A DNA stretch of 64,000 bases. It comes from Antedon mediterranea (taxonomy: Eukaryota > Echinodermata > Crinoidea > Comatulida > Antedonidae). The notes under the pieces are model-generated. The model was not told the origin of the DNA and did not search any database. It saw only the letters and a list, made by a program, of their open reading frames with translations. The translations under genes were made by a program, and so were the position numbers. How positions within the stretch are numbered: the stretch's first letter is position 1; each line of letters opens with the position of its first letter. Positions 36-64,000 of this stretch are shown here, one piece after another. Where the stretch lies: positions 1,139,922-1,203,921 of the forward strand of contig NC_092678.1 in assembly GCF_964355755.1 (NCBI RefSeq). The letters run 5' to 3'.

Positions 36-2504
36 AATTTCACATAGTTGTTTGCGGCTTGGATTCAATCATCGCTAGGCGATGGATCAACGGAATGCTT
101 GTAAGTTAGATCAAAACTATCGAAGAGTTAACATAAAATTCAATGTAAAAAAAAAGTTATTTTTGTGCTTTTACAATACGAAAATAAATTTGCTTTAAAA
201 TTGTAGTTAAGCCTGTTAAGATATGAAGACGGTGTGTTAGATCAAGCGTCACTTATTCCGATGATAGACGGTGGAACCGAAGGCTTCAAAGGAAATGCGC
301 GTGTAATTCTACCGGGAATGACACCCTGTATTGAGTGTACACTGGATCTCTATCCTCCACAGGTAATGGCAGATAAATAGTGTATAATTATATTATGACA
401 ACTTGCAATTCAATTGGGACCTATCCTTTAAAAGGAATGCATTAATTGTTGTGTGGTATTACTGTAAATTAAAATCAGCTGTTTCATTTTGTTTTTTTTT
501 AGGTAAACTTTCCAATGTGTACAATAGCACATACACCAAGGTTGCCAGCACATTGCATTGAATATGTTAAAGTTTTGTTATGGCCTCAAGAAAAACCATT
601 TGAAGGTAAGAAGGACATTAAGTGAATGTTAGAATGTTGCAGGAGGGATTGCCCACAATGCAACTAGTCGCGGGTAAAGGCTTTCTTAAAATGACTCCAT
701 TTAAAAATGAATGATTTTTCTTTCTTTCATTAGGTGTTGCCATTGATGGCGATGATCCAGACCACATACAATGGATATTTGAGAAATCTCAACAAAGAGC
801 TGATGAGTACAACATACAAGGGGTGACTTATCGACTTACTCAAGGTAGGCTGTTACCAATACATTATCGGAAAATTTATTATATAGTTTATGAATGACGT
901 TAAAAATATTTGAACATTTTGAACATTATACAGTAAACACACACTATATTGTAGGTGTTGTGAAAAGAATTATTCCAGCAGTAGCGTCAACAAATGCTGT
1001 CATTGCTGCCCAGTGTGTGACTGAAGTATTCAAAGTGGCCAGTAGGTAGGTAACACACCACATACACCCATATAGGTGACCAGTAGGTAGGTAACACACC
1101 ACATACACCCATATAGGTGACCAGTAGGTAGGTAACACACCACATACAGGTGACCAGTAGGTAGGTAACCACACCACATACACCCATATAGGTGACCAGT
1201 AGGTAGGTAACACACCACATACACCCATATAGGTGACCAGTAGGTAGGTAACACACCACATACACGTGACCAGTAGGTAGGTAACACACCACATACACCC
1301 ATATAGGTGACCAGTAGGTAGGTAACACACCACATACACCCATATAGGTGACCAGTAGGTAGGTAACAATTCAAACCACTGCTGTTGGATGTGGTTGAAA
1401 TAAAATAAATTCACGCCACATATAGGTGTGGCTTCGCTTCTAGTATAAAGAAATAGCATTTAACAATTGTGTTTCTAATTATTCTTATTTATTTTTCAGT
1501 TGCTGTAACCCTTTGAATAACTACATGGTATTTAACGACACTGATGGATTATATACCTACACATTTGAAGCAGAAAAGAAAGTAAGAATACAGAGTATAC
1601 AAATATAATCACCCATAAATATATGGTATTATGTGTACACTCACTTAGCCAAATTCTGTAATACAGCATCACATATGTATCACATGTGACACCAGTATTA
1701 TGCTTATGGCCTATGATACATATGTGCATATGTGACACAGTATTACAGAACTTGTCTATAGTACTGGACAAATTATAGATACAATCAGTACAGAGAATCG
1801 TCCAAGATAATTAACTGATTAGTTTGTTAAATACAAACAATAAATGAAACACATTTTAAATAAATGTGCGATGTTTTACAGGAAGACTGTTTGGCATGCA
1901 GCCAAATCCCACAAACAATTCAAGTTTCAACTGATGATACGTTACAAACGGTTTACAACTATCTATGCGAGAATCCACAAATGTGAGTAATGTGCACCAT
2001 CCACCCAACTTCAATGTAAAAAGAATTTGTGAAATGAGTTCCGAAAAATAACAAGATTTGCACCATGACATGATATTTATTTGTGTTTAATATTGTTTGT
2101 GTTTTAGGCAAATGAAATCCCCAAATATAACAACAACAATGGATGGAAAGAATAAAACACTATACATGCCAACTATAGAGTCAATCAAAAAACGCACTAA
2201 GGAGAACCTGGCCAAGAAACTAACAGGTAAATGCTAATGTGTCTTTCGATTATACGCAACACATTAAAAAAACCAACTGATGTCAAAAGTATTGTATAAC
2301 TAAAAATAAAAGCAAATATTGCGTAAAATGCCCAGTCATCAAAATCTCCAAGTATGATATGTTTATGATCACCAGCATATAGGCTAATATTAGTATGTTT
2401 GTGTTGCAGATTTAGGCTTAACCGAGGGACAAGAGATTGTAGTATCCGACCAAACTTCACCAACATCTTTGATATTCGTCATCAAATTTAAAGTAAATTC
2501 ATGA
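36..2504 (+). CDS. UBA3: NEDD8-activating enzyme E1 catalytic subunit (3' part, 5' exons outside window)
   Basis: Catalytic half of the NEDD8 E1 (partner NAE1/APPBP1). It adenylates NEDD8, carries it as a thioester and passes it to UBE2M, feeding cullin neddylation. Nine exons read in phase: 36-100, 207-362, 503-605, 734-844, 955-1045, 1500-1581, 1882-1982, 2108-2226, 2410-2504 (stop TGA). The adenylation domain is entered at [16 protein letters not shown] pair and a later CLAC pair fit the structural zinc site. The catalytic cysteine is in [12 protein letters not shown] (codon 518-520). The crossover segment [19 protein letters not shown] is intact, followed by the UBA3-type [10 protein letters not shown]...GLYTYTF block and a C-terminal ubiquitin-fold E2-binding domain ending [10 protein letters not shown]. 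Nothing looks broken; the N-terminal nucleotide-binding part is simply cut by the window. The family identity is secure from many matching blocks. Exon 5 ends at the first copy of a donor-containing minisatellite. The gene is convergent with TSR2, 313 bp away. Confidence 0.96.
1046..1370 (+). repeat. Minisatellite with 41-bp unit containing the UBA3 intron 5 donor
   Basis: The unit is about 41 bp with some shorter copies. It carries CCAGTAGGTAGGTAAC, the same sequence that spans the exon 5/intron 5 border at 1045/1046. I count nine GTAGGTAAC donor motifs including the true one, up to about 1365. The first unit differs from later ones in GGCC versus GACC just inside the exon. Every unit border is AG|GT. 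Forty-one is not a multiple of three, so use of a later donor would shift frame. ORFs read across this block are repeat artefacts. Confidence 0.9.
1655..1800. mobile_element. Small inverted-repeat element, family B (copy 1)
   Basis: Lies in UBA3 intron 6. ATTCTGTAATACAGCATCAC near the left and GTGACACAGTATTACAGAA near the right are inverted repeats, with CACATATGTATCACA inside. Related copies sit near 8930-9085 and 58225-58410, each with a nearby GTACAGAGAA motif (reversed in copy 2). Length and lack of coding capacity fit a MITE. The ends are approximate. Confidence 0.65.
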
Positions 2505-2817
2505 AAATATTACATTAAAACATGAATACAAACTGATAAATTAAATTAAATTAACTAAAATGAACACAAGTGTTTTATATTCTAATATACATTTTTTTGT
2601 AGTGTACATGCATTACTAAAGAATAATAGTAAAACTTTTAGGCCCAAAATGTTTATTTTTTGTTAAGTATTAAAATATTTGTGTTAAAATACATACACTG
2701 CATTAAAATATATCTTTGTTTTGGACAAGAACAAAAAGCAATGAATATTGGAGTGTATTTTCATTTTTTGAATGTTTTTCAAATATAGTTTAAAATTAAA
2801 ACCTAAATTATTAGTTA
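2505..2817. other. 3' ends of two convergent genes
   Basis: AT-rich 313-bp gap between the UBA3 stop and the TSR2 stop. ATTAAA at 2514-2519 could be the UBA3 poly(A) signal. TTTATT at about 2652-2657 reads AATAAA on the minus strand and could serve TSR2, so the two 3' UTRs may be adjacent or overlap. No other gene is seen. Confidence 0.45.
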
Positions 2818-5638
2818 TCATTTTTTCTTTCCTCTTTTTATTATTGTCCAGCCATCATCTTCATCTTGACTATTTTTTTCAGTAGTTGATTCTGGAATAA
2901 TAAAATAAAGTTATTGTCGTCAGCAAATCAACTCGATGATCTCAATATTACATCAAACAAAAGTAATCAAAACCAGTAAGGAAAACTAATTTAACTTTAA
3001 CAGAATTTAAAACAAAGCTATAGATTGGGTACAGGTGAAGCGCTACAGCCAAAAATGTGCAATTAGTTATAAATATAACTGATTGAGCATTACTACACAT
3101 ACCTTTGTTTGATGATTGAGCATTACTACACATACCTTTGTTTGATGATTGAGCATTACTACACATACCTTTTTTGATGATTGAGCATTACTACACATAC
3201 CTTTGTTTGATGATGATTGAGCATTACTACACATACCTTTGTTTGATGATTGAGCATTACTACACATACCTTTGTTTGATGATTGAGCATTACTACACAT
3301 ACCTTTGTTTGATGATTGAGCATTACTACACATACCTTTTTTGATGATTGAGCATTACTACACATACCTTTGTTTGATGATTGAGCATTACTACACATAC
3401 CTTTGTTTGATGATTGAGCATTACTACACATACCTTTGTTTGATGATTGAGCATTACTACACATACCTTTGTTTGATGATTGAGCATTACTACACATACC
3501 TTTGTTTGATTGGGTAGCAGAATCATTTCCATTCACTAATGATGCATTTGACATCATTGCTTCACAATTATGTTGGCTTACATCTTTCTAATAAATTTAA
3601 ACGGCAATAATGGTTTTAATACTGCATTACATTTATCATATATAGGGTAAATAATTAGCTATGGTTTCCCTGCCCAGCTATTTCCTTTTTATGTCTAAAG
3701 CCTTGTCTACACTATCAAACTTTATGTGACATAAAATGTGATGTGCCCATAATGAACACAATGAAGTCATATCCCTACCTGATCATCATCATCTTCCTGT
3801 CCAGCCGCTGATGTACATCCATCTAATCTTGCTTTTGGTACTTCTTGTATTTCCCTTAAAATTGAACTGTGATTTCCGGATTTGTATAGGTTAAAAAAAT
3901 CACAAATCTTTTTACATATCTGGAAAAAAGATGCACATAAATTTGTTATATATTGAGACAACAATAAAATAGATTTTTTCCCGTTGTTTCTAAAGAAAGT
4001 TTCCACTTAATAGGGGTGTCCCAAAGGAGGGGTTCTACTGTGTAGTTGCTTGTCCCATAAATTGATTGTGGGATAAAATGTCATTCATCATTGTTAAACT
4101 AGGTCATGTCATCATTGTTACACTAGGTCATGTCATCATTCATGGTGTTCTTAAATCTTACTTGATATGAACTGCCATCTTCAGCAATTGTGTCAAATTC
4201 TGTATTTAGGATTTCAGATAAAAACTCATCAAGTTCATCTGGCTCAATCCCATCTAATAAAAAAAAAACAGACTGAAATTTAAATTACTGTTAAAAACAA
4301 TATAACCTGGTATCACATATGGATTTCATTTTATTACAATGCATACCATTTTCCTGAAACCATTGCCATATAGCGCCAACAAACCATTCAGCCTTCTCAC
4401 GTCCATATGGTCCACCAAATCCGTGCTGAACAGCAAGCTAACAACAAAAGACAAAATTGTTCACTGTATATTTATATAATACATTGGAAAAAATAGCTTC
4501 GCCTTATTCAATATTTAGGTCGACCATGCATCTTTGCATACAACATAGAGAACTAGAATAAAATACTGTTAATGTCATGCCGATTAAATTAAATTAGTTA
4601 TGAATTGTTGAATCTTTTTTTTTAAAGATGTATTGTCTCTTTGACAAATTCCCAAAAAATTTTTAAAACAAGATTTTGAAAAAAGTGGGTCATTTTGGAG
4701 TATCATAATAGTTATTAACTTTCACCAAAAATTGGTCAAAAAAAAAATCATTTAACAGAAATACAGATGACTTCCAGTCAAAATCTTCGATCAAAACATA
4801 TCTCATAATGCAAAGCGCTTGTTTGGCTAATCTGTGTATGCATAATCATAAAACTTCTTCGCGATCTGTGTGAAAACACCTTCTCAACTCTGACGACTTG
4901 TAAACAATCCTAATTAACATACAGTATCATGCATAATGCATACTCATGGTTTGAAATCTTTGTTTACTTTCGCTCCCGACAATTTTCCAGACGAAATGTA
5001 ATCAAACTAATTTACCTGTTAATAATCACGTACTTGTTGTTTTTGGCTCAAATTTTCGACTTAAATAAAGTGAATAACTTTAATATATACTTTGATATGG
5101 CCAATTTAAATTTAAAATATTTTGACCTTCATTTTTTTTTGTTTCAAGGGACAATATACATCTTTAAATTTTGACTGAAATTTTGTATTATTTTACAAAA
5201 TAATAATTAATATTAAATAATTAACTGTTAATAGCATGGTCGTCCAATATAATTATTAATTGATATAAACCTAACGCTAGGCTTAGTAAGTAGGAGAGGA
5301 GAGTGAGAATTAACTTGCTAGGCCCTGATGTATGAACCTAGGCAAGCCGCATCAGCTCCACCCAGCAGGGGCCAATCCGCTCGTGGGGGGCCAGGCTAGC
5401 GCCAATCTAGTAGTAGACTGACTAGCTAGGCCTAGCCTAGCCCCGGGCCTACTAGCTAGATATTTAATAATTGTTGTAAATAATATTTAAACATGCAAAT
5501 AGCAAAATATATTACTCATTAGGCCTAACAACTAACCTGTAAAACAGTCCATCCTTGTAATAATGCTTCTATTCCACGATAAAATATATCTTTTTGCTCC
5601 GTAAATCTAGCTTCTTGCTTTCCAGAGGAGGCTGCCAT
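2818..5638 (-). CDS. TSR2: Pre-rRNA-processing protein TSR2 homologue
   Basis: TSR2 proteins escort ribosomal protein eS26 to the pre-40S particle in the nucleus. Six exons (minus strand): 5537-5638 (ATG at 5638), 4347-4437, 4162-4253, 3779-3919, 3500-3587, 2818-2891 (stop TGA 2818-2820), giving 195 aa, close to the vertebrate length of about 190. Family blocks seen: helical start ending GIEALLQGWTVLQ, then LAVQHGFGGPYGREKAEWF, then DELDEFLSEILNTEFDT(I)AEDGS, an acidic linker, and the characteristic C-terminal tail DEDDGWTIIKRGKKK. The start is the only ATG at the head of the matching helix. The donor of exon 5 (3499/3500) is the first of 13 tandem copies. The donor of exon 4 (3778/3779) lies where a half MITE ends. 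Divergent from the gene at 6301. Confidence 0.94.
3092..3510 (-). repeat. Minisatellite with 33-bp unit containing the TSR2 exon 5 donor
   Basis: On the minus strand the unit reads about AACAAAG|GTATGTGTAG followed by TAATGCTCAATCATC. Thirteen CTTTG/CTTTT...ACATACC junctions are present, counted from 3500 down to about 3100. The copy nearest the exon supplies its last bases CAAACAAAG and the donor GTATGT. The first units are exactly 33 bp and stop-free in the TSR2 frame (GMCSNAQSSNK per unit, five times). A one-base-shorter unit then breaks the frame. Two units are 1 bp short and one is 3 bp long. Confidence 0.9.
3698..3778. mobile_element. Half copy of MITE family A beside TSR2 exon 4
   Basis: The sequence starts like CTTGTCTACACTATCAAACT, continues TTATGTGACATAAAATGTGATGTG and stops at CATATCCCTAC, where TSR2 exon 4 begins on the minus strand. 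Full copies of the family continue past this point (CATATCACTACC). The intronic bases GTAGGGATATGAC of the donor therefore coincide with MITE sequence. Confidence 0.6.
4072..4156. repeat. Short tandem repeat, TSR2 intron 3
   Basis: About three copies of a unit of roughly 26 bp, CACTAGGTCATGTCATCATT with spacer variation. It lies directly intronward of the exon 3 donor but does not contain it. Confidence 0.6.
4621..5168. mobile_element. Non-coding DNA transposon, family C (copy 1)
   Basis: A 548-bp segment bounded by inverted ends: TTTAAAGATGTATTGTCTCT on the left and GGGACAATATACATCTTTAAA-type sequence on the right. A second copy (13228-13736) aligns along its whole length, sharing GTGGGTCATTTTG, AATCATAAAACTTC and TTTGATATGGCC. 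Its longest ORF (81 codons) is not conserved in the other copy, so it is non-autonomous. It sits in TSR2 intron 1. Confidence 0.8.
5330..5460. other. GC-rich patch in TSR2 intron 1
   Basis: A local GC-rich stretch with GGCCTAG/CTAGGCC words and CTCGTGGGGGGCCAGG in otherwise AT-rich DNA. No ORF or RNA gene recognised. It may be an old repeat fragment or an intronic regulatory patch near the 5' end of the gene. Confidence 0.35.
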
Positions 5639-25147: not shown

Positions 25148-26568
25148 CCATTTTCTACGAAAGCCCATTAATGGCATTTTAAGTATATGTTTTTCGAACG
25201 TAATCTGTTATAACGAATTAGTAATTCGTTTGAACGGATTAATAATCTGTTCAAACGAATTAGTAATCCGTTCAAACGAATTGCAACATATACAACAAGT
25301 GCCATTTAAAGTATATGTTTTAATTCGTTTGAACGGATTACTAATCCGTTCAAACAAATTACTAATTTGTTTAAACGGATTACTAATTTGTTCAAACGGA
25401 TTACTAATCCGTTCAAACGAATTACTAATTTGTTTAAACGGATTACTAATTCGTTCAAAACAAATTAGTAATTTGTTTAAACGGATTAGTAAACCGTTCA
25501 AACGAATTACTAATTCGTTCAAACGAATTAGTAATCCGTTGAAACGAATTAATAATTTGTTTAAACAAATTAATAATTTGTTTAAACGGATTATTAATCT
25601 GTTTGAACAAATAAGTAATTCGTTTGAACGAATTAGTAATCCGTTTAAACAAATTATTAATTTGTTTAAACAAATTAATAATTTGTTCAAACGGATTACT
25701 AATTCGTTAGAACGAATTAGTAATTCGTTTGAACAAATTAGTAATCCGTTTAAACAAATTACTAATCCGTTTGAACGGATTCCTAATTCGTTTTAACAGA
25801 TTATTAATCTGTTTAAACAAATTAGTAATTCGTTTGAACAGATTATTAATCCGTTCAAACAAATTACAACATATTCTTTAAATGGCACTTGTTGTGTATA
25901 TACGAAAGCCCATTAATGCCATTTTAAGTATATGTTTTTCGAACGTAATCCGTTCTAACAAATTAGTAATTCGTTTGAACGGATTAATAATCTGTTCAAA
26001 CGAAATAGTAATCCGTTCAAACGAATTACAACATATACAACAAGTGCCATTTAAAGTATATGTTGTAATTCGTTTGAACGGATTACTAATCCGTTCAAAC
26101 AAATTACTAATTTGTTTAAACGGATTGCTAATTTGTTCAAACGGATTACTAATCCGTTCAAACGAATTACTAATTTGTTTTAACGGATTACTAATTCGTT
26201 CAAACGAATTACTAATTTGTTTAAACGGATTATTAATCCGTTCAAACGAATTACTAATTCGTTAGAACGAATTAGTAATTCGTTTGAACAAATTACTAAT
26301 CCGTTTAAACAAATTACTAATCCGTTTGAACGGATTCCTAATTCGTTTTAACAGATTATTAATCTGTTTAAACAAATTAGTAATTCGTTTGAACGGATTA
26401 CAACATATTCTTTAAATGGCACTTGTTGTATATGTTGCAATTCGTTTGAACGGATTACTAATTCGTTTGAACAGATTATTAATCCGTTCAAACGAATTAC
26501 TAATTCGTTAGAACGGATTACGTTCGAAAAACATATACTTAAAATGGCATTAATGGGCTTTCGTAATT
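25148..26568. mobile_element. Nested fold-back element made of AATTCGTTTGAACGGATTA palindromes
   Basis: Ends are TACGAAAGCCCATTAATG (left) and CATTAATGGGCTTTCGTA (right), flanked by ATTTTC on both sides, a likely target-site duplication. The interior is an array of roughly 20-bp words AATTCGTTTGAACGGATTAC and their complements CCGTTCAAACGAATTAC, separated by TA/AAT. A 150-bp head block (GAACGTAATC ... ACAAGTGCCATTTAAAG) recurs at 25910 and inverted at 26410. ORFs reading NGLLIRSNELL or KRISNPFKRI are artefacts of the repeat. Confidence 0.8.
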
Positions 26569-28885: not shown

Positions 28886-31800
28886 TTATTGTACAGAGAT
28901 GCCAATTGTCGACAGAATGTGTTTCTCAATATTGTTGAGGTGCGAGGCAAACACCACATGTGAAGGATGATGGGATAGCTGCTGTAGAAATTCCGTAAGA
29001 TGAGCCTGGAAAAAAAAAATTTTTTAAATCACTTTTTCTGCACCGAACAAAAAAAAAACGGTTACACGTTTTTAACATAACATTATTGTTTTTTTAGTAC
29101 AAGTTACACTTCATAACACTGTTTTTCATTTAGTTTCACTTTAACTAATCACTTTCATAATAACAGACAATTTAAGAGAAGGTCGTAACCGTGACAACAG
29201 TAGTAAACTATCTACCTGAATGTCAATTTGAAAGACAGGATCCTGCAACGCATCTGGATCATCCTCATCATCATCATCTACATCCGCATCACCAAAATCA
29301 TAACCTAAAAACAATAGAATATGAAATTGTCATCTAGAAAAACATTACTTATTGCACCAGTACTACATCATAACAGGGCAATATCTTAATATTATTACCT
29401 AAGAATGATGATGTAGGTACAAAACCTGCCAACTGATTTGCTAAATCATTATCATTGATGTTATCATCATCGTCATCATCGTCTTCATCTTCATCCCAAC
29501 CATCCTCCTATGAACACAAACAAATCAAGTTATGTTATTACTCATTTTAAAATATATATGACCTCAGCTACTGACATGACCTCAGTTTGCTAATGACACG
29601 GCCCCAGCCAATGACAAGACCTCAGTTTGCTGATGACATAACACCAGCTACTGACATGACCTACACTAATGACAAGACCTCAGTTTGTTGATGACATGAC
29701 GCCAGCTACTGACATGACCTCCACTAATGACATGACCTCCACTAATGACATGGCCTCAATTTGCTACTGACATGATCTCTACTAATGACATGGCCTCATT
29801 TTTCTAATGACATGACCACCACTAATGACATGGCCTCAGTTTGCTAATGACACGACCTCAGCTAATGACATGACGCCAGCTAATGACATGACCTCAGCTA
29901 ATGACATGACCTCAGTTTGCTAATGACATTACCTCTTCTATGTCTTCGCCGCCGGCTGATGCCTGCCTTGATATATTTGCCTCCATCACGTTTGACAATT
30001 CATTCACTAATATTTTGTAAATTTTAACCTGAATTGGAATTACAGTCCATTCTACAGGAGCTGTGAATTTAAATAAAATTACTAAAAAATTAATCTGTTT
30101 TTCTAATACCCCTTATACATCGCCTATAACAAATCCGGAGCTTACACAAATTCTGGTGTGTTAATAGCAGTGTTTTGTATGGTCAAATCAAATGACAGGA
30201 ATTTATTTAGGTGTTATATAATACAGTTTATTTCACGCCATGTGACCCACAATCATCCAATCAAATGACAGGAATTTATTTAGGTGTTATATAATACAGT
30301 TTATTTCACGCCATGTGACCCACAATCATCCAATCAAATGACAGGAATTTATTTAGGTGTTATATAATACAGTTTATTTCACGCCATGTGACCCACAATC
30401 ATCCAATCAAATGACAGGAATTTATTTAGGTGTTATATAATACAGTTTATTTCAAAAGTGTTTATGGCATAGACACACTTTGACTACTCTACATTGTTTT
30501 TTAATATACGATATTTACTAATGATCTTGTTCTTACAAATTGCTGCCTTTGAGCGTGTTCTGATTCCTTCATGTTTGAATATTTCATCTCCTTTCACTAC
30601 GATGCCATCCAATCGGCTGTCATTGGTGTTAATGAAATGTTTCAAAAGCTCACTAAGGGCTGTAATACTGCAAAAAAGATTAGTGTTTTTAAACAAGTAG
30701 TATTTTGATATACCCAAATATGGTAATAATATGCTCAAATATGGTAGTGATATGACATCATCATGTCCATATATGGACACATCACATTTTTTTTGTCACA
30801 TAAAGTTTGATAGTGTAGACAGAGTTTTATATAGTCGCATATTTCATTCACTTACCTAACTTTACACTCATAAGCACCATAGAAATTGTGTTGACGGGCA
30901 GCCCACTCAGTAAGTACGAACTCAAGAGCTGTGTTACCGGTCGGTCCTGGTACTTGGTAGAGAAAGTCCAAGACTGCGTTAAGTTGAGAATGCATAAGGT
31001 GAGCAAACACCATAACTAAAGACTTTGAAAATAAATAGGTATTACATGCTATTGTGTTTACACTGTTACTATTAAATAATATTTAATATCAATTCATGCA
31101 AAACATTGTATGTAAACCAATTTGAGCATGTAACTCTTTATTTTAACTGGTGACCATGCTGCAAAGTTTGTCTCTGTAGAAGTACCGATGAAGTCAATCT
31201 GTGACGACAATAGAATGGACCCGAGACCTGACTATCTTCAATAGAATGGACCCGAGACCCGACTATCTTCAATAGAATGGACCCGAGACCTGACTATCTT
31301 CAATAGAATGAACCCGAGACCTGACTATCTTCAATAGAATGAATCCGAGACCTGACTATCTTCAATAGAATGGACCCGAGACCCGACTATCTTCAATAGA
31401 ATGGACCCGAGACCCGACTATCTTCAATAGAATGGACCCGAGACCCGACTATCTTCAATAGAATGAACCCGAGACCTGACTATCTTCAATAGAATGGACC
31501 CGAGACCTGACTATCTTCAATAGAATGGACCCCGAGACCTGACTATCTTCAATAGAATGAACCCGAGACCTGACTATCTTCAATAGAATGGACCCGAGAC
31601 CTGACTATCTTCAATAGAATGGACCCGAGACCTGACTATCTTCAATAGAATGGACCCGAGACCTGACTATCTTCAATAGAATGGACCCGAGACCTGACTA
31701 TCTTCAATAGAATGGACCCGAGACCTGACTATCTTCAATAGAATGGACCCGAGACCTGACTATCTTCAATAGAATGGATCCGAGACCTGACTATCTTCAA

Positions 31801-34800
31801 TAGAATGGATCCGAGACCTGACTATCTTCAATAGAATGGATCCGAGACCTGACTATCTTCAATAGAATGGACCCGAGACCTGACTATCTTCAATTTTTAA
31901 ATAATAGAAAGTTTTGAAAAAATGTACGTTGTATGATGTGTATGTTTATTGAAAAATTTAGTCTTTAAATTAAATTGTATATAAGTTGTGATGAGAAAAC
32001 AGTTATTTGTTTGTTGTCAAACTTATTTTGGTGTCCGTGTGTGGAAAACAAACTCACTTGTACTACGCTTAATGTTTCAGCTTGTTGCATCTTGCTGAGG
32101 ACCGCTTTCAAAATGGCCGACAGATCGTCACCGAGTCCGATCCCAACCTTTGAGATTAAAATAGCAACAAGTCGTCCAATGAACGCAGCTGTAAACTCTG
32201 ACGTTTGCGGGTTCAGTAATTTTGAAATTGATTTTGTAATATACGAGATTCCGTTATTGCCGGCGCCATCGTGCCACGTTTTTATCTGATCAAGTCCTAC
32301 GGATACATATGCTCGTAAGCATTCACCGCCACTCTGTAAGAAACAAATTCTTTTATTTCAACAACCAATGAGCAAGCATGTAGAATATTCACCATCACTT
32401 CCGATGCTAGTCTTTTAGTTTAATACACCCCTCCCCCATCTCAACAAGCTCAAATTGTTTACATAGCCCGCATGGCAGCATTGTCATCTTCAGTTTGAAC
32501 TGGCAACACCTCCCCAAAACCCCAACCAACCCACATCCAACAAATTGTTTCCTAACCTGCATGACAGCATTGTCGTCTGATCTTAGTGTGCACTGAGCGA
32601 CTGCGGGGAAGGCTATAGTCACATGATCACTAGACAGCGGTGCACCTGTGCTTCTTACAACTGTACATAGAATATCAAGTGCTGGCTGAAACATAAAATG
32701 CATTAAGATCTATAGTAATCATTGTATAATATGCTCTGAGATTGATATGGTCCAATGGTAAGGGACCAGACTAGCATGTGAGAGGCGTGGGTTTATGCAT
32801 TAAGATCTATAGTAATCATTGTATAATATGCTCTGAGATTGATATGGTCCAATGGTAAGGAACCAGATTAGCATGTGAGAGGCGTGGGTTTAAGTAAGTT
32901 TCAGCAATATTGATTGCATCTTTAGGCAAGGTACTTTACTCTCATTGCTTTGTCCTTCAGATGAAATGTAAAGCCGTGAGTCCCATGTACAATGAACATG
33001 TACACTTGATACAGAGGGGATGGTCTCCTTTGTAGGCTCTGCACTGCTGGTGGGTTCATGGAGGGCATTCAAATGCACATTCACATTTCAAACACTCACC
33101 GACTGTATACCCATAGGTAGCTTCTCTGGGTCGCTGTTTATAATACTAACAATTGTGGGAATTAATCGTTTCTCAAGTGCATCTTTACAGTCTGGATTTG
33201 AGGCTAGCTCTTTGAAGATGTCTTCAACATATGATGCCATAATTGGGTCTATAAAGAATAAAATGTATTTTTTCAAATATTATCTCAAATTCCTGGTTTC
33301 CTTAGTGTTTTGTAGATCTATAATTGTTAACGTACTTTACCTTGACTAAATTTGAGGAACAAAGCAATTGCTAATGGTGCTATCTGCTTCTCACAAGTGG
33401 CTGTAAACGGTTTATCAATCTGTAAAACAACATAACATGTTTACAACTGCATTTGTTGTTTTCAATTCAGTTCATGTTTATCATCGTTATAAATTGTACA
33501 CACACAGTATATAAATGATGACTTAAGGTTAACTCAGAAAATGCTGTACAAGACGTCTCGTCGGGAGCAAATAAAACATGTTTAAAGTTCTTGCGACGAC
33601 CTAAAATCTACAGCTGACACTATCTCAAGATGACCAGCTCAGACAGCACCATCGAGTCAAGATGTTTAGTCGGGCCTTGTTGTACGATGCTGTCTGAGTT
33701 GGCCGCTTTGCACGATTTGTTTGTATCTGTTTAAATGAATTGAAATCAAGTTGCTCTCAGTTATTTTCTATTTAATTAAGCAGGTTTTTTAATTAATCTT
33801 GTTTTACTTTTCTCCTAGGGGTGTCTCACACTACTATGGCATTAATCGTTTTATCTAGGTAAGTTGCCAGTTTTATTAACACTGTATACTTACTGTTAAT
33901 GCAATACTTATTGTTTCCATGACGAGAGACAGAACATCAGATGAACTCTGTTTGGCTAATTCAATCAACTCGGCCATTATCGTTGGTAAAAATGGAACCA
34001 AAATCTGACTATTATTGGACGTTTTTAGATGATCGCAGTAACCGTGGATGGCTCGCACAGCTGACACACGAACGGAAGCGGGTTGTGACGCACCAAGTCC
34101 TAACGTTGTTGCTTCTAAAAAACTGAAGAGTCATTAAAAAAATTATGAAAATACTTTATAGAAAAACCGGAGGATGTAGCATCTTCAAGATCAACTAATC
34201 AATTTAAGTCAGGTCTCAACTGACATGGTCCAACCACCCTGTGCCGTGAGCTCCGGAAACAAGTAAGTAAACAAGTAATATTCAAAACAAAAAAGATTTG
34301 TCTTACTTCTGTACTAATTTTGGTGTCATAGCTAAGGTAAACCTACTGGCAGCCCACAACGCTCGTCCTAATAAAAACGGTGAAACTGTTGAGAAATAAA
34401 AAAAAAATGTTAAATTATTGCTATGAGAATCATACGTTTTGTTATATTACACAATGTTTTAGGCTCTTTTTACACTATCAAACTTTAAGCGACACAAAAA
34501 TGTGATGCGCCCCAAATGATATATCATATCATTACCAGATTTGGGCACATCACATTTTTTTGTCAAACAAGTTTGATAGTGTAGACAGAGCGTTACACAA
34601 TGTTAATATTGATTCGTGTTTAAAACATCACAGCGTGGAAATGTACGTAATAGTTACCGGGATAATTGAGGTCCGCTAGTACCACTGTTGTCAGAAATGA
34701 CTCCATATCAAACTGCAGTTTACCACTCGCAACCTTATCACAGATTAAACTTTTTACACTACCGAGAGCCAACAGGCTCGACTCGTGAATTTTCCACCTG

Positions 34801-37800
34801 AAAAAACAAACAAGCAAACACCCTCTATTAAAAGGATTTTTTTCGACCTTTGTGAGGGACAGGCGATGTCTTTACATACATGAACTAACAGACAGATGTT
34901 ATTGTGTTATTACAGTGTTTTGGAAGTATATATATATATATATAAACAAAATGATTTTCGATCGTCCTATATTTATATACTTGTTTACCAGTAACAGTTT
35001 CCGTTGTCCTTAGCAACCTGTGCTTCTTGAAAATGCCTAGTTACTGCTGAAACTAGTCCAACGCTGCTGTCATTCTGGAACTCTGCTGCAAGTTGCTGCA
35101 ACAAACAAAATGAATATACTGTATATCTATACTTGTAAAATTATATTATTACTTATAACTACATAATTATGCTAATCAACGAATGCTAGTTATCTTACCA
35201 GTAAAAGGTCTTGGGCAGATATTCGAACGCTGTATGAGAATGTTTCAACGTCCTCGTCTTCAACAAATTGATTTGGGTTATTTGTCCAGGTTGTTGCCTG
35301 AAAAAAACCCCAATATATCATTTAAGCTCTGTCTACACTATCAAACTGACAAACAAAATTAGATGTGCCCAATTATGGTAATGATATGCTTAAATATGGT
35401 AGTGATATGACATCATCATGTCCATATATGGGCACATCACATTCTCATTCACATAAAGTTTAATAGTGTAGACAGAGCTTAAGAAAGTTTATCAGTTACA
35501 TACACACACTGAATTTAAAGGACAGAACTTTTATGCAAATTTTACCTGTTCCTCTGTAATTTGCATATATAATACGATGTAATAAAACAGCTGATCAACA
35601 CTTTTCTTGATAGTGCTTCTAAACTTTGGCGTCTCTATCATCCCATTGATAAAATCAAATACACTAAATACAAGGTTTTCAAATCCTAATACTTCACCTG
35701 AAAGAACAAATTTAACTAGAATTGAACTCGTTACGATGACGAGTTAGGCTATCGCGCAACGCATTGTAACATCAACATGCTATTTATTAGGTTTAATCTA
35801 CAGTATGCTGTACCACAATTGTTTGTACAAACGGCATTGCATCGATCAAAACCGTTCAACAAGCATTGACGGTATTGGCATTGTAAACGGTTTAGTTGAT
35901 GGTTAGTTTTTACTTTACACCACTCACGTTTATTTAAGTGTTTGAATATGATGACCTTTTCAAATAAAAAAAAAAATTCATATGTCTGAAGGAGAATGTT
36001 TTGAGTAATAACATTATTGAAAATTGATAACGTTTACGTGATATGCGCCATATGATGATGTCATAACATACCTACGGTTGCACAAATGGGGTTCTTAATC
36101 TTTAGTAGAAGACCCCTCCAAAATAATAGAACCTACCATCAGAGTCGATTGGATTGTCAGCCTCTTCTGTTCCGTTGACAACAGTTGTAATGTACACTTC
36201 AGCACTCTCTGTTAGAGTCTTCCAAATTGGGGGTAAGATTTGCGGCATGAATTTGTTCATCTGTTTGGGGTAGTTTTTAATTAGTGTTGTTAAAGCCTAT
36301 GAAAAAAAAACATACAGAGTTAATGTATATATCAGTACAAATATGTATAATAAGGTGTGTTTTTACCCAAATATAGCTTACCTCAATATAGCTTACCTCA
36401 ATATAGCTTACCTCAATATAGCTTACCTCAATATAGCTTACCTCAATATAGCTTACCTCAATATAGCTTACCTCAATATAGCTTACCTCAATATAGCTTA
36501 CCTCAATATAGCTTACCTCAATATAGCTTACCTCAATATAGCTTACCTCAATATAGCTTACCTCAATATAGCTTACCTTAATATAGCTTACCTCAATATA
36601 GCTTACCTCAATATAGCTTACCTCAATATAGCTTACCTCAATATAGCTTACCTCAATATAGCTTACCTCAATATAGCTTACCTCAATATAGCTTACCTCA
36701 ATATAGCTTACCTCAATATAGCTTACCTCAATATAGCTTACCTCAATATAGCTTACCTCAATATAGCTTACCTCAATATAGCTTACCTCAATATAGCTTA
36801 CCTCAATATAGCTTACCTCAATATAGCTTACCTCAATATAGCTTACCTCAATATAGCTTACCTCAATATAGCTTACCTCAATATAGCTTACCTCAATATA
36901 GCTTACCTCAATATAGCTTACCTCAATATAGCTTACCTCAATATAGCTTACCTCAATATAGCTTACCTCAATATAGCTTACCTCAATATAGCTTACCTCA
37001 ATATAGCTTACCTCAATATAGCTTACCTCAATATAGCTTACCTCAATATAGCTTACCTCAATATAGCTTACCTCAATATAGCTTACCTCAATATAGCTTA
37101 CCTCAATATAGCTTACCTCAATATAGCTTACCTCAATATAGCTTACCTCAATATAGCTTACCTCAATATAGCTTACCTCAATATAGCTTACCTCAATATA
37201 GCTTACCTCAATATAGCTTACCTCAATATAGCTTACCTCAATATAGCTTACCTTAATATAGCTTACCTCAATATAGCTTACCTCAATATAGCTTACCTCA
37301 ATATAGCTTACCTCAATATAGCTTACCTCAATATAGCTTACCTCAATATAGCTTACCTTAATATAGCTTACCTCAATATAGCTTACCTCAATATAGCTTA
37401 CCTCAATATAGCTTACCTTAATATAGCTTACCTCAATATAGCTTACCTTAATATAGCTTACCTCAATATAGCTTACCTTAATAACCTCCATTTTAAGACC
37501 GCTATCAGATATTTGACCATCTGGCGTGTTGAGGGCTTGAATAAATGCCTCCACAAAACTAGGTAGCAAAGGATATACAAGTTTTGCTGCTAAACCCTGT
37601 AAAAAAAAAACATTACACATTAATTTTACTAATCTTCTTTTATAGAGTAGGTGCTGTACTTGAAACCTATAGTGCCTGATTGTTAAGCTCTGTCTACACT
37701 ATCAAACTAGTTTGACAAAAAAATTGTGATGTGCCAAAATATGGTAGTGATATGACATCATCATGTCCATATATGGGCACATCACATGTTTGATAGTGTA

Positions 37801-45600: not shown

Positions 45601-47276
45601 TCCTGCTCATGTGTTACACTTATTACTACTTAATATTATTTATCTCTTGTTATTGTTATTGTAGGATGAAGCTAATGAGACACGAATGAAAGTAGCAAGT
45701 TTAGTTGAGCAAGTACTTAAAGCACAAGACACAAGAAATGACCTATTTAAGCGTTATGAGAAAGCAATTGCAGACTACAAGTCTAGCAAGTCTCTCTCTG
45801 GTATGTTCTTCTAAAGTATGGACTTAGTCCAAGCATCATTGATTTAGTGTCTGTTCATTTTACAATGCTACACATCAGTAGATGGATTGGTCAACAGATT
45901 ATTCACATTTTAGTTTCATTTTTTATAGCTTTCCAATCTGCGGTCAAGAAAATCAATTCTCAGTTGAAAGAAGTGACCCAGACAGTGGCCGCAATTCAGA
46001 CATCGGTCAAACAACAGAGTGAAGTTGCAGAAAAGGTTTGTATTTTACAATTCTCACACTGCCTAGCAAAAGTCGCAAGTTTACACACATTCTGGGGCGT
46101 CAACACCCCAGTGTTTTATATGGTGTGTGTAAGCTCTGTAGTTTACACACATTCTGGGGCGTCAACACCCCAGTGTTTTATATGGTGTGTGTAAGCTCTG
46201 TAGTTTACACACATTCTGGGGCGTCAACACCCCAGTGTTTTATATGGTGTGTGTAAGCTCTGTAGTATACACACATTCTGGGGCGTCAACACCCCAGTGT
46301 TTTATATGGTGTGTGTAAGCTCTGTAGTTTACACACATTCTGGGGCGTCAACACCCCAGTGTTTTATATGGTGTGTGTAAGCTCTGTAGTATACACACAT
46401 TCTGGGGCGTCAACACCCCAGTGTTTTATATGGTGTGTGTAAGCTCTGTAGTTTACACACATTCTGGGGCGTCAACACCCCGGTGTTTTATATGGTGTGT
46501 GTAAGCTCTGTAGTTTACACACATTCTGGGGCGTCAACACCCCAGTGTTTTATATGGTGTGTGCCCTGGTGTGTGTAAGCTCTGTAGTATACACACATTC
46601 TGGGGCGTCAACACCCCAGTGTTTTATATGGTGTGTGTAAGCTCTGTAGTTTACACACATTCTGGGGCGTCAACACCCCAGTGTTTTATATGGTGTGTGT
46701 AAGCTCTGTAGTTTACACACATTCTGGGGCGTCAACACCCCGGTGTTTTATATGGTGTGTGTAAGCTCTGTAGTATACACACATTCTGGGGCGTCAACAC
46801 CCCAGTGTTTTATATGGTGTGTGTAAGCTCTGTAGTATACACACATTCTGGGGCGTCAACACCCCAGTGTTTTATATGGTGTGTGTAAGCTCTGTAGTTT
46901 ATACTCATTCTGGGGCGTCAACACTGGTGTTTCGTATACCGTGTGCCCTGGTATGTTAAAACCCCAGAATTTTGCTAGGTTAAGTGAAATGGGTATTAGA
47001 CAGTGTACATATTGTTTTCATGTAGCTTGAAAAACAACATTGCTTAAGATAAGATAACTTACCGTAACAGTATTGTGAATAAACTATTTTCAGATCTCTG
47101 AGCTACAAAAGCTAAGCGCCCAAGCTAAGGAGCTTGCTCAGCAGAGCGTAACCAACGCAGAGAAGTTGGTGTCTGGTAAATATAGCAAACAACAGTACCT
47201 AGACCAAGATAAGGTTAACAAAGCTAAACGTGAAGATGTTGATAACAGAATTCAAGGTGTTCTAAGTACTCTATAA
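39642..47276 (+). CDS. RPN1: Ribophorin I, oligosaccharyltransferase subunit 1
   Basis: A non-catalytic subunit of the ER oligosaccharyltransferase complex, which moves the dolichol-linked glycan to asparagine in nascent chains. Eleven exons: 39642-39890, 41014-41075, 42148-42457, 42778-42981, 43116-43308, 44593-44692, 45006-45144, 45304-45423, 45665-45800, 45929-46035, 47094-47276 (TAA); 600 aa against about 607 in human. An N-terminal signal peptide ([16 protein letters not shown]) is followed by a large lumenal domain with [34 protein letters not shown] and [14 protein letters not shown]. One membrane span lies in exon 8 at about residues 434-451 ([18 protein letters not shown]), then a charged cytosolic helical tail. 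The start is the first ATG with a signal peptide. Introns 1, 2, 5 and 10 hold transposons and a 62-bp array. Confidence 0.97.
40119..40930. mobile_element. Fold-back element built of TTGCGCAA palindromes
   Basis: Left end TACTGTAGTGTGTATGTTAT and right end ATAACATGTACAATGCAGTA are inverted, continuing as GCGC(G/A)ATTTGAACGATTTG on both sides. The arms are arrays of TTGCGCAATTTGAAATTGCG-type palindromes (40140-40390 and 40780-40910). The middle holds CTAGGCCTAG words and a GC-rich knot at about 40575-40650. Only artefact ORFs (FKLRK/ISNCA repeats). RPN1 intron 1. Confidence 0.8.
41171..41902. mobile_element. MITE-like element with GACAAGTTGAGCCGCCG ends
   Basis: The left end GCCGCCGACAAGTTGAGCCG then TTTCTATGAAACGCC is mirrored on the right by GGCGTTTCATAGAAA then CGGCGGCTCAACTTGTCGGC. 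The right end has the 17-bp CGGCGGCTCAACTTGT word tandemly repeated three times. The interior is AT-rich and non-coding. RPN1 intron 2. Confidence 0.8.
43471..44312. mobile_element. Long interspersed non-coding element, family E (copy 1)
   Basis: Collinear over about 850 bp with 59055-59913. Shared blocks include GTTTCATACGTATACTACTT, GACACCAAGAATTCTTGGTG, GGTTGACTAGTTTCAGC, TTTCCCAAGAACATGAAAAC and CCATATAGCCAAATACGGTA. No ORF of note. RPN1 intron 5. Class unknown. Confidence 0.75.
44372..44490. mobile_element. MITE family A copy
   Basis: TTCTGTCTACACTATCAAAC, then ATGTGATGTGCCCATATATG and GATGATGTCATATCACTAAC. The right end is degraded. It abuts the end of the family E element. Confidence 0.78.
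46080..46960 (+). repeat. 62-bp array of hairpin-forming units, about 14 copies
   Basis: Each unit has ACACACATTCTGGGGCGTCA, ACACCCCAGTGTTTTATATG and GTGTGTGTAAGCTCTGTAG. Inside a unit CTGGGG pairs with CCCCAG and ACACAC with GTGTGT, so every copy can fold back on itself. One copy carries an extra GTGCCCTG, and the last copies are degenerate. Starts 45 bp after RPN1 exon 10, in intron 10. Confidence 0.92.
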
Positions 47277-48138: not shown

Positions 48139-51100
48139 TCAGAATTTTTTCTTTTTCTTCTTCTTCTTTCTGCATTTTGGACAATACCAATCTTGGTCTT
48201 CAGGCGGCTCCTTGACAATTTTCACACATGGCCTACAAAAAAAACAAAAAATTAATTGATCTTCCTCAGTAGAGATTGGTTAATTGCGAGTACACAAGCA
48301 ATAATCATTGACACCTACCAATGATACCAATCATCGCAGTTATCGCAGCCAATCATAGGACTTCCATCATCGGGAAACTGACAAGTCGGACATATCCAAA
48401 TTTTCTCTTCGGTTTCGGCCTAAAAGTGAAATTTGGCAAAAAAGATCATTACCATGCATATGTGTTTTCAATATTTGAATGAATTAGTAATTTTAATAAC
48501 AAAGAAAACGTACAACTACTGTTCCAATTGTTTCAGTAACTACTGATCTTTCTTCTGCCTTTTTAGCTTTAACTTCTTCTGCCTTTTTAGCTTTAACTTC
48601 TTCTGCCTTTTTAGCTTTAACTTCTTCTAACTTTTGACTTTTAACCTCTTCAAACTTCTGTGCTTTAATCTCTTCCGTTTTCTTAGCCTTTGTAATTCCA
48701 GACGTCTTATTGTTTCCCTTAACAGCTTTAGCTTTGCCTTTTGTTGATGGCGTGGCTAATTTAGTTGTCTTTGTTTTGTTTGCTTTTGGAGTGCTAATTG
48801 TTTCCGTCCACACAGACGGTGAACTGGCAGAGGTTTGCATCGGTTCAGGTTTTTCACAAGCAGGAGTTGGAGATATTGTTTTCGGAGAAGACTTTGCTTT
48901 TGTGCTAGGAGCCTTGCGTTCCGGTGTGCTCTTTGATGCACTGCTATTTGCTGGTGATCCAGATTTCTTAACCTTCTCTGTTTTTTTATTTTGATTCATG
49001 GACTTCTTTGTAGCCTTTGGTTCTTTTGTTTTGACTGGTTGTAAATCAAATGGTTTAACTTCTATCGGTGAATCTGGGTTATAGGTCGGAGACACGGGGG
49101 CTTTATACGGTGGTGAATATTTGTAAGTTGGAGAAGCTGAGGGCGATATGTCTGGTTTTGGAAACAAAGGAGTGGGACTGGTTGTCGGTGTTCTTGGGGT
49201 CTCTAAGCTTTGGTTAGAGGAATCGGAATCAAAGTTATATGGCGAAAATATTTTACTGTCCAATTTTATTTCAATCGGGGGTGATTTTGAAGTCGGCGAG
49301 GGTGTTGTCGTCGGAGTAATTGGTCTTGGAGGTGGAAGTGGGGAAGCAGGTTTCACTGGTTTCTTTTTCTTGGTAGTCTTGACTGGAGATGATGTAATAT
49401 TTGGTGTGAGAACAGGAGGACCTGGCGATGGAGGTTGTGGGATAGGTGATAGTGACCTCTCAGCAGGTGATGGTGACCTCACGTCTGGTGAAGGAGGTTT
49501 GATTGGTTTAATAACACTGTAAATAAAGAAATCAGTAATTATCAATGTTTAGTATTGAGATCTATATGATCAACTCCCAGCATTCCCTTCAACATTATTA
49601 TTTACTTACAATCGTTTGCTGCCCTCTCCTGTCGAACTCGATCCAAAGGTCAGCGTTATTTTAGGCACAAGTGGTTCATCTGTTTTGCCCTTGAAGTAAA
49701 AAGCACAGTATGAGTTAGTGGTGGTGTTATTAACATAAAGCACAGTATGGGTTAGTGGTGGTGTTATTAACATAAAGCACAGTATGGGTTAGTGGTGGTG
49801 TTATTAACATAAAGCACAGTATGGGTTAGTGGTGGTGTTATTAACATAAAGCACAGTATGGGTTAGTGGTGGTGTTATTAACATAAAGCACAGTATGGGT
49901 TAGTGGTGGTGTTATTAACATAAAGCACAGTATGGGTTAGTGGTGGTGTTATTAACATAAAGCACAGTATGGGTTAGTGGTGGTGTTATTAACATAAATG
50001 ATAGGCATCATACAGATGTACACTAAAGACATACCTTCTTTGTATCACCTTGATCTTGCTGCGTCCTTATCTTTAGTTTCTTCTTCTTAAACTTATCTTT
50101 TGATTTCTTATCTTTTTTCTTTTCTTCTTTTTGATGGACTTCTGGTTTAACTTGCACAACTTGTAAGGAAGTTGAATTCTTGCGTTTAATATTCAATTTA
50201 GGAATCGGTGCCAATTTACTTTCCTCTTTGCCGTCTTTCACAATCTTTGTTTCGCCGCCTAACATCTTGACCTTAAAAGTCAAGTCGGGTTTCTTTTTTG
50301 ATTCTTTAGCATCAACTAGAATATTACTTGCAATTTTAAGTTTCTTTTCTTTATCTTTATGTATTTTCTTTTGTTTCTTAATAACTGTGTTCTTAACAGA
50401 GTGCAGCATATCCTTAGCATTGTCTTTTTTAATCTTCTTTTTCTTGATGCTACTACTAGATTTTGTTTTTTTATTTTTTAGAGCGGCTTCCTGTTCTCGC
50501 AAAGCTTGTTTGAACGCAAACTTTGGAGGTAAATAAGCCTCTTTGTTTTTTTCAAGCGACTTATTCTTTTGCTTTTTCTTTATAACAGCAGATATGGCAG
50601 CATCTGTCGGATTGTTTACTGGAGAAGTGTCTAACTTTAAACTTGGGACTTCATCACTGTCGCTTGATGACTGCGTACTTGATTGTTTTGCTTTTACCGA
50701 TTCCATTTCTTGTCGTCCTTTCGCAACCGCAGACCTGAATGCTTCTTGCATTGCACTGAATTTTGATTCTGCTGCTGCTGGCGGTGGTGACTGCAATTTT
50801 GAATCACTTTTGCCCTTTGGAGAACTATCAAATTCATCGTCATCAAAATCATAAATATCCGATTTCTTTGATGTTGTCTTTGTGGGTGGAGCCTTCACGT
50901 CCGATTTCTTTGTTACCTGCACTTTAGGTGATTCTGGTTTTGCTGCCGGACTCTTTGATCTAACTACCTCAGGTTTGTCTAAAGACTTCTGTTTAGTAGG
51001 ATACTTAAAAGACGACTCACTTGAAAATAAATTGAAAGATGGTTTTGGCGATTTCTGGGATGTTTTTTGTTTGGTAACTGTAGGAGATGAGACTTGTAAT

Positions 51101-52844: not shown

Positions 52845-53105
52845 ACAGTAACTTTTGAACTTTCACCTTGTGTTTGTTGTGACTTACTCGTTTCTACACT
52901 CCACTTAAACATGAGCCTCTTTCATCAACAAAAAATATATTGTGATAATATATATTTCAATAATAGTCAATAATAGTATTTGTATCATCAATACATTTTT
53001 CTTATTATACATTTATAAATGAAAAACCTTTATAGCTATTTTTTTGTGTTTAAACAATTTTGAAATATTATTATTATTATCAAACAAGTTAATGGCCTAG
53101 CCTAG
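52845..53105 (-). repeat. Family D repeat, copy upstream of TAF3
   Basis: The reverse complement of 5650-5912. Starts TGAACTTTCACCTTGTGTTT and GTTGTGACTTACTCGTTTCT and ends AATGGCCTAGCCTAGG. In both places it sits directly 5' of a start codon on the minus strand, but in opposite orientation. Confidence 0.8.
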
Positions 53106-61139: not shown

Positions 61140-61307
61140 ACCAATTATTCAAAGACATTACATTGTTGTTACTTTGTAGGTACACACCTAATTGGTGGCT
61201 TAGGCTGCTTTTGTGTTTTCTTGGCAGCTAGTATGATTTTATATTTTCTTCTTGCGTCATGTGTTTGTATAATTTGTATTATATTTTGTAAAATGTCTCT
61301 TTTGCTG

Positions 61308-61313
61308 AATAAA
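61308..61313 (+). terminator. RBR ligase poly(A) signal
   Basis: AATAAA in GCTGAATAAATAAC, 169 bp after the stop. The next 480 bp (61320-61800) are AT-rich with no feature recognised. Confidence 0.6.
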
Positions 61314-61804
61314 TAACAATAATAATAACTCATTTTGTCTGCCACATAGTTGAAAGTTGTTCAAAGTTGTGTATTCTATGTGAACAAATACTTTATACCC
61401 TACACCTCTTAGTCTACAGTTGAACCAATATTACTTTATTAAAACATGGGGATAATATTTGTGTTTGTTGAATTGTTTATATAGATGATAATGTGAAATC
61501 TGATTATTTCCACAAAAAAATTGTTGATAAAATGTGTACTTTACTTTATTATTAATTGTAAACTTTAAAAGTTGTACAGTATTTCAGTTATGAAACACTA
61601 TGATGCAATAATATGACCTTATATTATAAAATTGTCTTGATTACTTTCTTTTTTTCATTAGAATTTGTTTAAATAGAGGTGCCGAATTCGCTCCTCTTAA
61701 ATTTTGATGTTAAGATGCATTTTAATAAAATCACAGGACCCTCAACAATATTCTAGTGCAGTTACTGCATATTTTAAAAGAAAATAAATTTTGTTTTGAC
61801 GAAA

Positions 61805-64000
61805 TTTGCTTTCCATAATATTCATAAATCAATTATTTTTTGACGAATGTTGCCTTTCATAATATTCATAAGTCAATACCTTGTTTAACGAATGTTGCCT
61901 CCCGTAATACTGAATCAATACATTTTTTTAAGGATGTTGCCTTCCATAATACTAAATCGATACCTTGTTTGACAAAATTTGCCTTCCATAATATTGAATC
62001 AGTACCTTGTTTGACGAAATTTGCGCTTCCATAATATTGAATCAGTACCTTGTTTGACGAAATTTGCCTTCCATAATATTGAATCCGTACCTTTTGTTTG
62101 ATGAAATTTGCCTTCCATAATATTGAATCAGTACCTTTTGTTTGACGAATTTTGCCTTCCATAATTTTAAATCAGTACCTTGTTTGACGAATTTTGCCTT
62201 CCATAATATTGAATCAGTACCTTTTGTTTGACGAAATTTGCCTTCCATAATATTGAATCAGTACCTTGTTTAAATTTGCCTTCCATAATATTGAATCAGT
62301 ACCTTTTGTTTGACGAAATTTGCCTTCCATAATATTGAATCGGTACCTTTTGTTTGACGAATTTGCCTTCCCTAATATTGAATCAGTACCTTTTGTTTGA
62401 CGAAATTTGCCTTCCATAATATTGAATCAATAAATTGTTTGTCGAAATTTGCCTTCCATAACACTGAATCAATACCTTGTTTGACGAAATTTGCCTTCCG
62501 TAATATTGAATCAGTACCTTTTGTTTGACGAAATTTGCCTTCCATAATTTTAAATCAGTACCTTGTTTGACGAATTTTGCCTTCCATAATATTGAATCAG
62601 TACCTTTTGTTTGACGAAATTTGCCTTCCATAATATTGAATCAGTACCTTGTTTGACGAATTTCGCCTTCCATAATATTGAATAAGTACCTTTTGTTTGA
62701 CGAACTTTGCCTTCCATAATATTGAATCAGTACCTTTTGTTTGACGAAATTTGCCTTCCATAATATTGAATCAGTACCTTTTGTTTGACGAATTTTGCCT
62801 TCCATAATATTGAATCAGTACCTTTTGTTTGACGAAATTTGCCTTCCATAATATTGAATCAGTACCTTGTTTGACGAATTTCGCCTTCCATAATATTGAA
62901 TCAGTACCTTTTGTTTAACGAACTTTGCCTTCCATAATATTGAATCAGTACCTTTTGTTTGACGAAATTTGCCTTCCATAATATTGAATCAGTACCTTTT
63001 GTTTGACGAAATTTGCCTTCCATAATATTGAATCAGTACCTTTTGTTTGACGAAATTTGCCTTCCATAATATTGAATCAGTACCTTTTGTTTGACGAAAT
63101 TTGCCTTCCATAATATTGAATAAGTACCTTTTGTTTGACGAAATTCGCCTTCCATAATATTGAATCAGTACCTTTTTGTTTGACGAATTTTGCCTTCCAT
63201 AATATTGAATCAGTACCTTTTGTTTGACGAACTTTGCCTTCCATAATATTGAATCAGTACCTTTTGTTTGACGAATTTTTCCTTCCATAATATTGAATCA
63301 GTACCTTTTGTTTGACGAATTTTGCCTTCCATAATATTGAATCAGTACCTTTTGTTTGACGAAATTTGCCTTTCATAATTTTAAATCAGTACCTTTTGTT
63401 TGACGAATTTTGCCTTCCATAATATTGAATCAGTACCTTTTGTTTGACGAAATTTGCCTTCCATAATATTGATTCAGTACCTTTTGTTTGACGAATTTTG
63501 CCTTCCATAATATTGAATCAGTACCTTTTGTTTGACGAAATTTGCCTTCCATAATTTTTAATCAGTACCTTGTTTGACGAATTTTTCCTTCCATAATATT
63601 GAATCAGTACCTTTTGTTTGACGAATTTTGCCTTCCATAATATTGAATCAGTACCTTTTGTTTGACGAAATTTGCCTTCCATAATTTTTAATCAGTACCT
63701 TGTTTGACGAATTTTTCCTTCCATAATATTGAATCAGTACCTTTTGTTTGACGAATTTTGCCTTCCATAATATTGAATCAGTACCTTTTGTTTGACGAAA
63801 TTTGCCTTTCATAATTTTAAATCAGTACCTTTTGTTTGACGAATTTTGCCTTCCATAATATTGAATCAGTACCTTTTGTTTGACGAAATTTGCCTTCCAT
63901 AATATTGATTCAGTACCTTTTGTTTGACGAATTTTGCCTTCCATAATATTGAATCAGTACCTTTTGTTTGACGAAATTTGCCTTCCATAATTTTTAATCA
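61805..64000. repeat. About 44-bp satellite array running off the window
   Basis: The plus unit is CCTTTTGTTTGACGAAATTT then GCCTTCCATAATATTGAATC and AGTA, in about 50 copies. Copies at the left edge (61805-62100) are diverged and shorter, and those toward 64000 are more uniform, with alternating AAATTTGCC/AATTTTGCC and TTTTAAATCA variants. On the minus strand each unit holds CAAACAAAAG|GTACTG. ORFs inside are repeat artefacts. Confidence 0.93.

Follow-up and report, generated by a model that had tools for sequence, protein, structure and literature searches.

Minisatellite arrays that span 5′ splice sites in the crinoid Antedon mediterranea

A 64,000-nucleotide piece of contig C9 (the window) from the 354-Mb genome of the feather star Antedon mediterranea, a crinoid, contains introns that begin inside tandem arrays, so that the array takes in the intron's own 5′ splice site (donor). 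The question raised by this locus is whether some property of donors attracts repeats or whether arrays that are born anywhere in introns occasionally fall on a donor. The Antedon arrays are minisatellites of the 'mirage' type, a kind already known from amphioxus. We consider it probable that they are chance births in array-rich crinoid introns that are tolerated at donors, and no result presented here requires donor-specific seeding.

Arrays at four donors in the window

Seven open gene models, with 67 introns in all, were built for the window. The modelled genes are UBA3 and a ZNF292/RLF-like gene (both without the 5′ part), TSR2, IPO9, RPN1, TAF3 and an RBR-type ligase; the names of the ZNF292-like, TAF3 and RBR genes are presumptive. 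The RPN1, TSR2 and IPO9 models match the A. mediterranea NCBI proteins from end to end at 100% identity. Tandem Repeats Finder (TRF) reported 33 merged arrays with a period of at least 9, of which 21 lie within modelled introns, and arrays cover 24.8% of the intronic bases. Arrays outside modelled introns were excluded from the counts. A donor is included in 4 of the 21 intronic arrays (UBA3 intron 5, TSR2 intron 5, and IPO9 introns 6 and 20), and an acceptor is included in none of the 21. These donor-spanning arrays are real (Table 1). TRF and the gene models place the UBA3, TSR2 and IPO9 intron 6 arrays over donors as a sequence-only reading of the window had proposed, and the degenerate fourth case that it named in IPO9 intron 20 is present as well. 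The same reading had the arrays start exactly at the exon edge, which needs correction: all four begin 3–11 nt inside the exon (11 nt in UBA3, 11 in TSR2, 7 at IPO9 intron 6 and 3 at IPO9 intron 20).

The opposite ends of the arrays bear on the Rogers model, in which tandem duplication of AGGT creates an intron and each unit, or the array as a whole, supplies both the GT and the AG. The sequence-only reading saw each unit as a tiny GT..AG intron, and AG|GT does stand at each unit border in the three regular arrays because the donor lies within the repeat. The phase of any AGGT-containing repeat is free, however, and the resemblance to an intron depends on the phase chosen. The true acceptors lie outside the four window arrays, 50–188 nt beyond them (131 nt in UBA3, 188 in TSR2, 73 in IPO9 intron 6 and 50 in IPO9 intron 20). 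Units of 15–41 nt are also below the usual length of spliceosomal introns, which counts against this model. Since the acceptors are outside the arrays and the phase is arbitrary, the arrays do not represent intron gain through AGGT duplication, an origin to which we assign almost no probability.

Table 1. Positions of exons, tandem arrays and dispersed elements within the window
Feature	Positions	Strand	Basis or remark
UBA3 exon, 3′ end ...GTGGCCAGTAG	955..1045	+	open gene model
41-bp array over UBA3 intron 5 donor	1035..1368	+	TRF; 9 units with GTAGGT
TSR2 exon 5, 3′ end ...CAATCAAACAAAG	3500..3587	-	model identical to NCBI protein
33-bp array over TSR2 intron 5 donor	3080..3510	-	TRF; 13 units with GTATGT
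IPO9 exon 6, 3′ end ...GTTATTAAG	37477..37596	-	gene model
15-bp array over IPO9 intron 6 donor	36370..37483	-	TRF; 74 donor-bearing units
IPO9 exon 20, 3′ end ...GAAGAG	29933..30060	-	model identical to NCBI protein
Degenerate 18/22-bp array at IPO9 intron 20 donor	29558..29935	-	TRF
31-bp array inside IPO9 intron 17	31208..31894	-	without any splice site
62-bp array in RPN1 intron 10, from intron position 43	46078..46924	+	intron's donor outside
37-bp array in TAF3 intron 3	49700..49998	-	stops 10 nt short of acceptor, acceptor excluded
MITE-like copies	35320-35490, 37680-37810, 34460-34600, 44370-44500, 55090-55215, 30750-30830		

Exon sequence within the units

The last 11 nt of the UBA3 exon reappear in the array with 1 mismatch. 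The array units carry ACC in place of the exon's GCC, a codon for the Ala that the solved homologue also has. The exon aligns without a gap to solved UBA3 chains at the intron 5 junction. Read-through from UBA3 into intron 5 meets a stop at residue 2, and that into IPO9 intron 20 at residue 7. The TSR2 frame continued into intron 5 reaches its first stop at residue 114, and the IPO9 intron 6 array is in frame, with no stop within the 150 codons read. An exon-like AAG ending occurs in units 2, 4, 8, 15 and 60 of the 74 units of this array, mostly exon-proximal ones. The inner copies of the IPO9 intron 20 array read mostly GTC.

The pattern recurs outside the window, as the sequence-only reading had suggested for a general phenomenon. 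Five further cases were found in AASS (L025), TDP2 (L035), DHX8 (L031), SLC35A1 (L030) and at one exon on contig C2 (L036), which brings the total to nine exon–intron boundary arrays in eight genes, with the L036 exon predicted only. The 51-bp AASS unit combines 39 nt of exon with 12 nt of intron, the 37-bp DHX8 unit includes 29 exon nt with 2 mismatches, and the 31-bp TDP2 unit includes 23 exon nt with 1 mismatch, which encode a conserved TNLRD stretch. Because the units of these three genes hold that much coding exon sequence, their source is the exon–intron border. The units contain 14 exon nt in L036, 11 in TSR2 as in UBA3, and 7 in both SLC35A1 and IPO9 intron 6. At least 7 matching exon nt are present in the units of 8 of the 9 arrays; IPO9 intron 20 has only 3. 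The TDP2 and DHX8 exons align to solved homologues (PDB) without a gap over the splice junction, and the SLC35A1 and AASS exons align as far as the residue immediately preceding the donor. The match of the UBA3, TDP2, DHX8, AASS and SLC35A1 exons to solved homologues locates the source sequence in the exon.

AG/GT signals are found in the units of UBA3, TSR2, IPO9 intron 6, AASS, SLC35A1, DHX8, TDP2 and L036. The exon copy differs from the array units in UBA3, TSR2, DHX8 and TDP2, and no difference was seen in AASS. Unit sequences of different genes are unrelated when compared by eye, in agreement with the sequence-only reading. A genome search with the IPO9 array returned its own array and two weak matches (71–74%) at one place on contig C8, in a weak search that skipped simple repeats and used the IPO9 unit alone as query. 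Introner elements were considered and rejected, as this search found no dispersed related intron sequences and inspection by eye shows no relation between units from gene to gene.

Other candidates for donor arrays were also rejected. The array L029 follows an exon that we presume to be SLC35F-like. Its first donor-like site, however, lies 69 nt farther downstream than the donor predicted for that exon, and by eye its unit does not resemble this donor. No credible exon ends at the arrays L032, L033 or L034. A 44-bp array at 61789-64000, a possible fifth donor case in the window, runs beyond the window as far as C9:1205743, where the 3 kb read at its far edge gave no credible exon prediction.

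These features are consistent with an origin in which a short segment was duplicated and then enlarged by slippage or unequal exchange. If the segment straddled the exon–intron border, the exon end and the donor would be copied into each unit. The added copies are intronic, and the first donor still stands beside an intact exon. Because of this arrangement, splicing from the first donor would give a normal mRNA and the array would be tolerated. The gene models and the homologues fit use of the first donor, and the NCBI IPO9 and TSR2 proteins are those of models that use it. We infer slippage or unequal exchange as the mechanism, tolerance of the arrays, and the lack of attraction to donors. 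Arrays on the acceptor side may be lost to selection through a competing earlier AG, as would be expected from general knowledge of splicing.

Strength of the copied donors

Donor strength was scored with a matrix built from the 63 other donors in the window. The median score is reached or exceeded by 74 donors in the IPO9 intron 6 array, 13 in TSR2 and 9 in UBA3, compared with 0.40 sites of this strength per kb of intron sequence outside arrays. This density is what would be expected if donor arrays were retained for a function, with many U1 sites that shield the transcript from premature polyadenylation or adjust its splicing. The IPO9 intron 20 array does not fit this explanation: none of its inner copies reaches the tenth percentile of donor scores. 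The intron's own donor ranks 5 of 63. Unit sequences that are unrelated from gene to gene also argue against a retained function, and we regard it as very improbable.

Donor-like sites are not confined to arrays at exon borders. Three of the arrays in Table 1, in IPO9 intron 17, RPN1 intron 10 and TAF3 intron 3, lack the intron's donor, as the sequence-only reading had noted. The RPN1 array contains 14 internal donor-like sites, away from the exon border.

An array at 8598-8690, among those excluded from the counts, could be intronic: it precedes the first exon modelled for the ZNF292-like gene, and that model lacks its 5′ part.

Donors compared with other positions

The main alternative to chance birth is a donor-linked process, either transcription-linked R-loops or AGGT-favored slippage, that would seed or expand arrays preferentially at 5′ splice sites. 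The sequence-only reading had favored a shared process of this kind and had set donor arrays against intronic repeat density as its own test. Measured by base coverage, donors are not enriched, with 4 of 67 lying in arrays versus 24.8% of intronic bases, and on this measure the proposal fails its own test. In a recurrence test on the window, a site was positive if the 21 letters around it were found again within ~130 nt. Out of 67 sites in each class, 2 donors and 0 acceptors were positive, compared with 5 to 7 of the positions lying 30–100 nt inside the intron.

A random sample of 20 stretches of 10 kb was analyzed with an exon finder that was trained and assessed on the same window (53 of 60 internal exons exact; 4 of 75 calls false at threshold) and that is blind to first, last and untranslated exons. 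The sample contained 73 arrays per 200 kb of sequence and 89 predicted internal exons, of which 88 were kept; the dropped exon was more than half array. Arrays included 1 of 88 donors, 0 of 88 acceptors and 1 to 5 of 88 control positions located 20–150 nt downstream of the donor. The single donor among 88 sample exons argues against a donor-linked process.

Genome-wide pattern counts point the same way. The tripled motif AGGTAAG has 868 matches versus 924 for the motif read backwards, which is no excess; these numbers are pattern matches, not arrays. Outside arrays, the sample contains 16 occurrences of AGGTAAG and 21 of the backwards word. The 5′ edges were read for 8 arrays among the matches listed, seven on contig C1 and the first on contig C2. 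Of these 8 AGGTAAG arrays, 4 coincide with a true or predicted donor (L030, L031, L035, L036) and 4 do not (L029, L032, L033, L034). The motif outside arrays is a predicted donor in 7 of 16 occurrences in the random sample and a modelled donor in 5 of 6 in the window. AGGTAAG is therefore no more often a donor inside arrays than outside them (4/8 versus 7/16, or 12/22 with the window included; Fisher P = 1), and the shared donor-linked process of the sequence-only reading finds no support in this comparison.

Several results weigh against chance birth and are counted here on the side of a donor link. In the window, 4 of the 8 arrays with at least five units include a donor, a number reached in 0 of 4000 random placements, and a mutational null, which lets a seed of unit size land at any position, gives P = 0.001 for this subset. 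For all 21 arrays the mutational null predicts 1.48 donor cases (P = 0.053). Random placement of the 21 arrays with an 11-nt exon overhang gives P = 0.019 (same-intron) or 0.001 (any-intron), and with a 20-nt overhang P = 0.115 or 0.006. The window alone thus shows an excess under several nulls (P from 0.115 to <0.001), with the qualification that both the 11-nt overhang and the subset of at least five units were picked after the data were seen. For window and sample together, with 155 sites of each kind, arrays include 5 donors and no acceptor (P = 0.0625 in a two-sided sign test), and this lean of donors over acceptors is not predicted by random birth alone. The counts are small enough to accommodate a modest donor preference. 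The figure of 4 of 8 AGGTAAG arrays is weakened by these small counts and by L036, whose exon is predicted only. At L030, moreover, the exon finder favors a donor 97 nt upstream of the array donor (24.1 versus 23.0); the array donor was chosen because the protein aligns to SLC35A1 as far as that donor.

Part of the excess in the window comes from selection, because the earlier reader picked the window for this pattern, and 0 of the 13 smaller window arrays, those with fewer than five units, include a donor. The array-level counts (5 donors and no acceptor in arrays; a donor in 4 of the 8 larger window arrays) constitute a weak hint of a donor link. A donor-linked process is possible and not supported, and we judge preferential seeding or expansion of arrays at donors by such a process unlikely. 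A related proposal, that in this lineage active 5′ splice sites favor minisatellite birth or expansion by a process tied to transcription or splicing, is doubtful to the same degree. If it were true, donor arrays would be a footprint that splicing leaves through mutation, ladders of near-identical donors would occur in a few percent of introns, and the spliceosome would have to select the first donor of each ladder.

Relation to known systems

Mirages were described in amphioxus as minisatellite-like tandem duplications of exon–intron boundaries with AG/GT signals, located in Adh3 and in two globin genes, BflGb6 and BflGb9 (PMC3087553). The same report gives units of 10–72 bp for Adh3 and describes RT-PCR (reverse transcription-PCR) results that suggest undisturbed regular splicing. 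The Antedon arrays share with them the position across the boundary, units composed of exon and intron sequence, and the AG/GT signals. They differ in their host, a crinoid and not a cephalochordate, and in the number of units, which reaches 74 here. As reported, the amphioxus globins show both sides of the boundary, whereas the nine Antedon cases are all on the donor side and 0 of 155 acceptors lie in arrays.

Internal tandem repeats at exon–intron boundaries are also described in human segmental duplications (PMC2812944). According to that account the human repeats are variable and yield alternative transcripts and novel introns, whereas the Antedon gene models and their introns have an ordinary appearance. 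The gain of introns when an AGGT-containing segment is duplicated in tandem has been outlined (PMC4974935) and has in common with the Antedon arrays the duplication of such a segment. As described there, the duplicate provides the splice sites of the new intron; in Antedon the acceptor lies beyond the array. No echinoderm mirage appeared in the titles and abstract openings of the records listed by the literature searches, which is a limit of the searches and not proof of absence. Passages of PMC12783039, PMC3902484 and PMC5585400 yielded no precedent for repeats at exon–intron boundaries.

The Antedon arrays extend mirage minisatellites from amphioxus to a crinoid, where several occur in conserved genes. 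With 74 strong donors in series, IPO9 intron 6 lends itself naturally to testing how the spliceosome selects one 5′ splice site when many are equal. Should donor arrays prove to exceed chance genome-wide, splicing or transcription would be tied to the birth of repeats.

Other repeats in the window

Palindromic units of 21 bp (AATTCGTTTGAACGGATTAC and similar sequences) alternate over ~1.3 kb at 25200-26521, enclosed by inverted flanks, in what looks like a fold-back element. A dispersed intronic element of ~110–150 bp, with both ends near AAGCTCTGTCTACACTATCAAACTT, looks like a miniature inverted-repeat transposable element (MITE); its copies are given in Table 1. RPN1 intron 1 contains a cluster of inverted copies of TTGCGCAATTTGAAATTGCGCAA at 40155-40347. 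Tandem repeats are also found within coding sequence, at 20614-20673 in the ZNF292-like gene and at 48550-48675 in TAF3.

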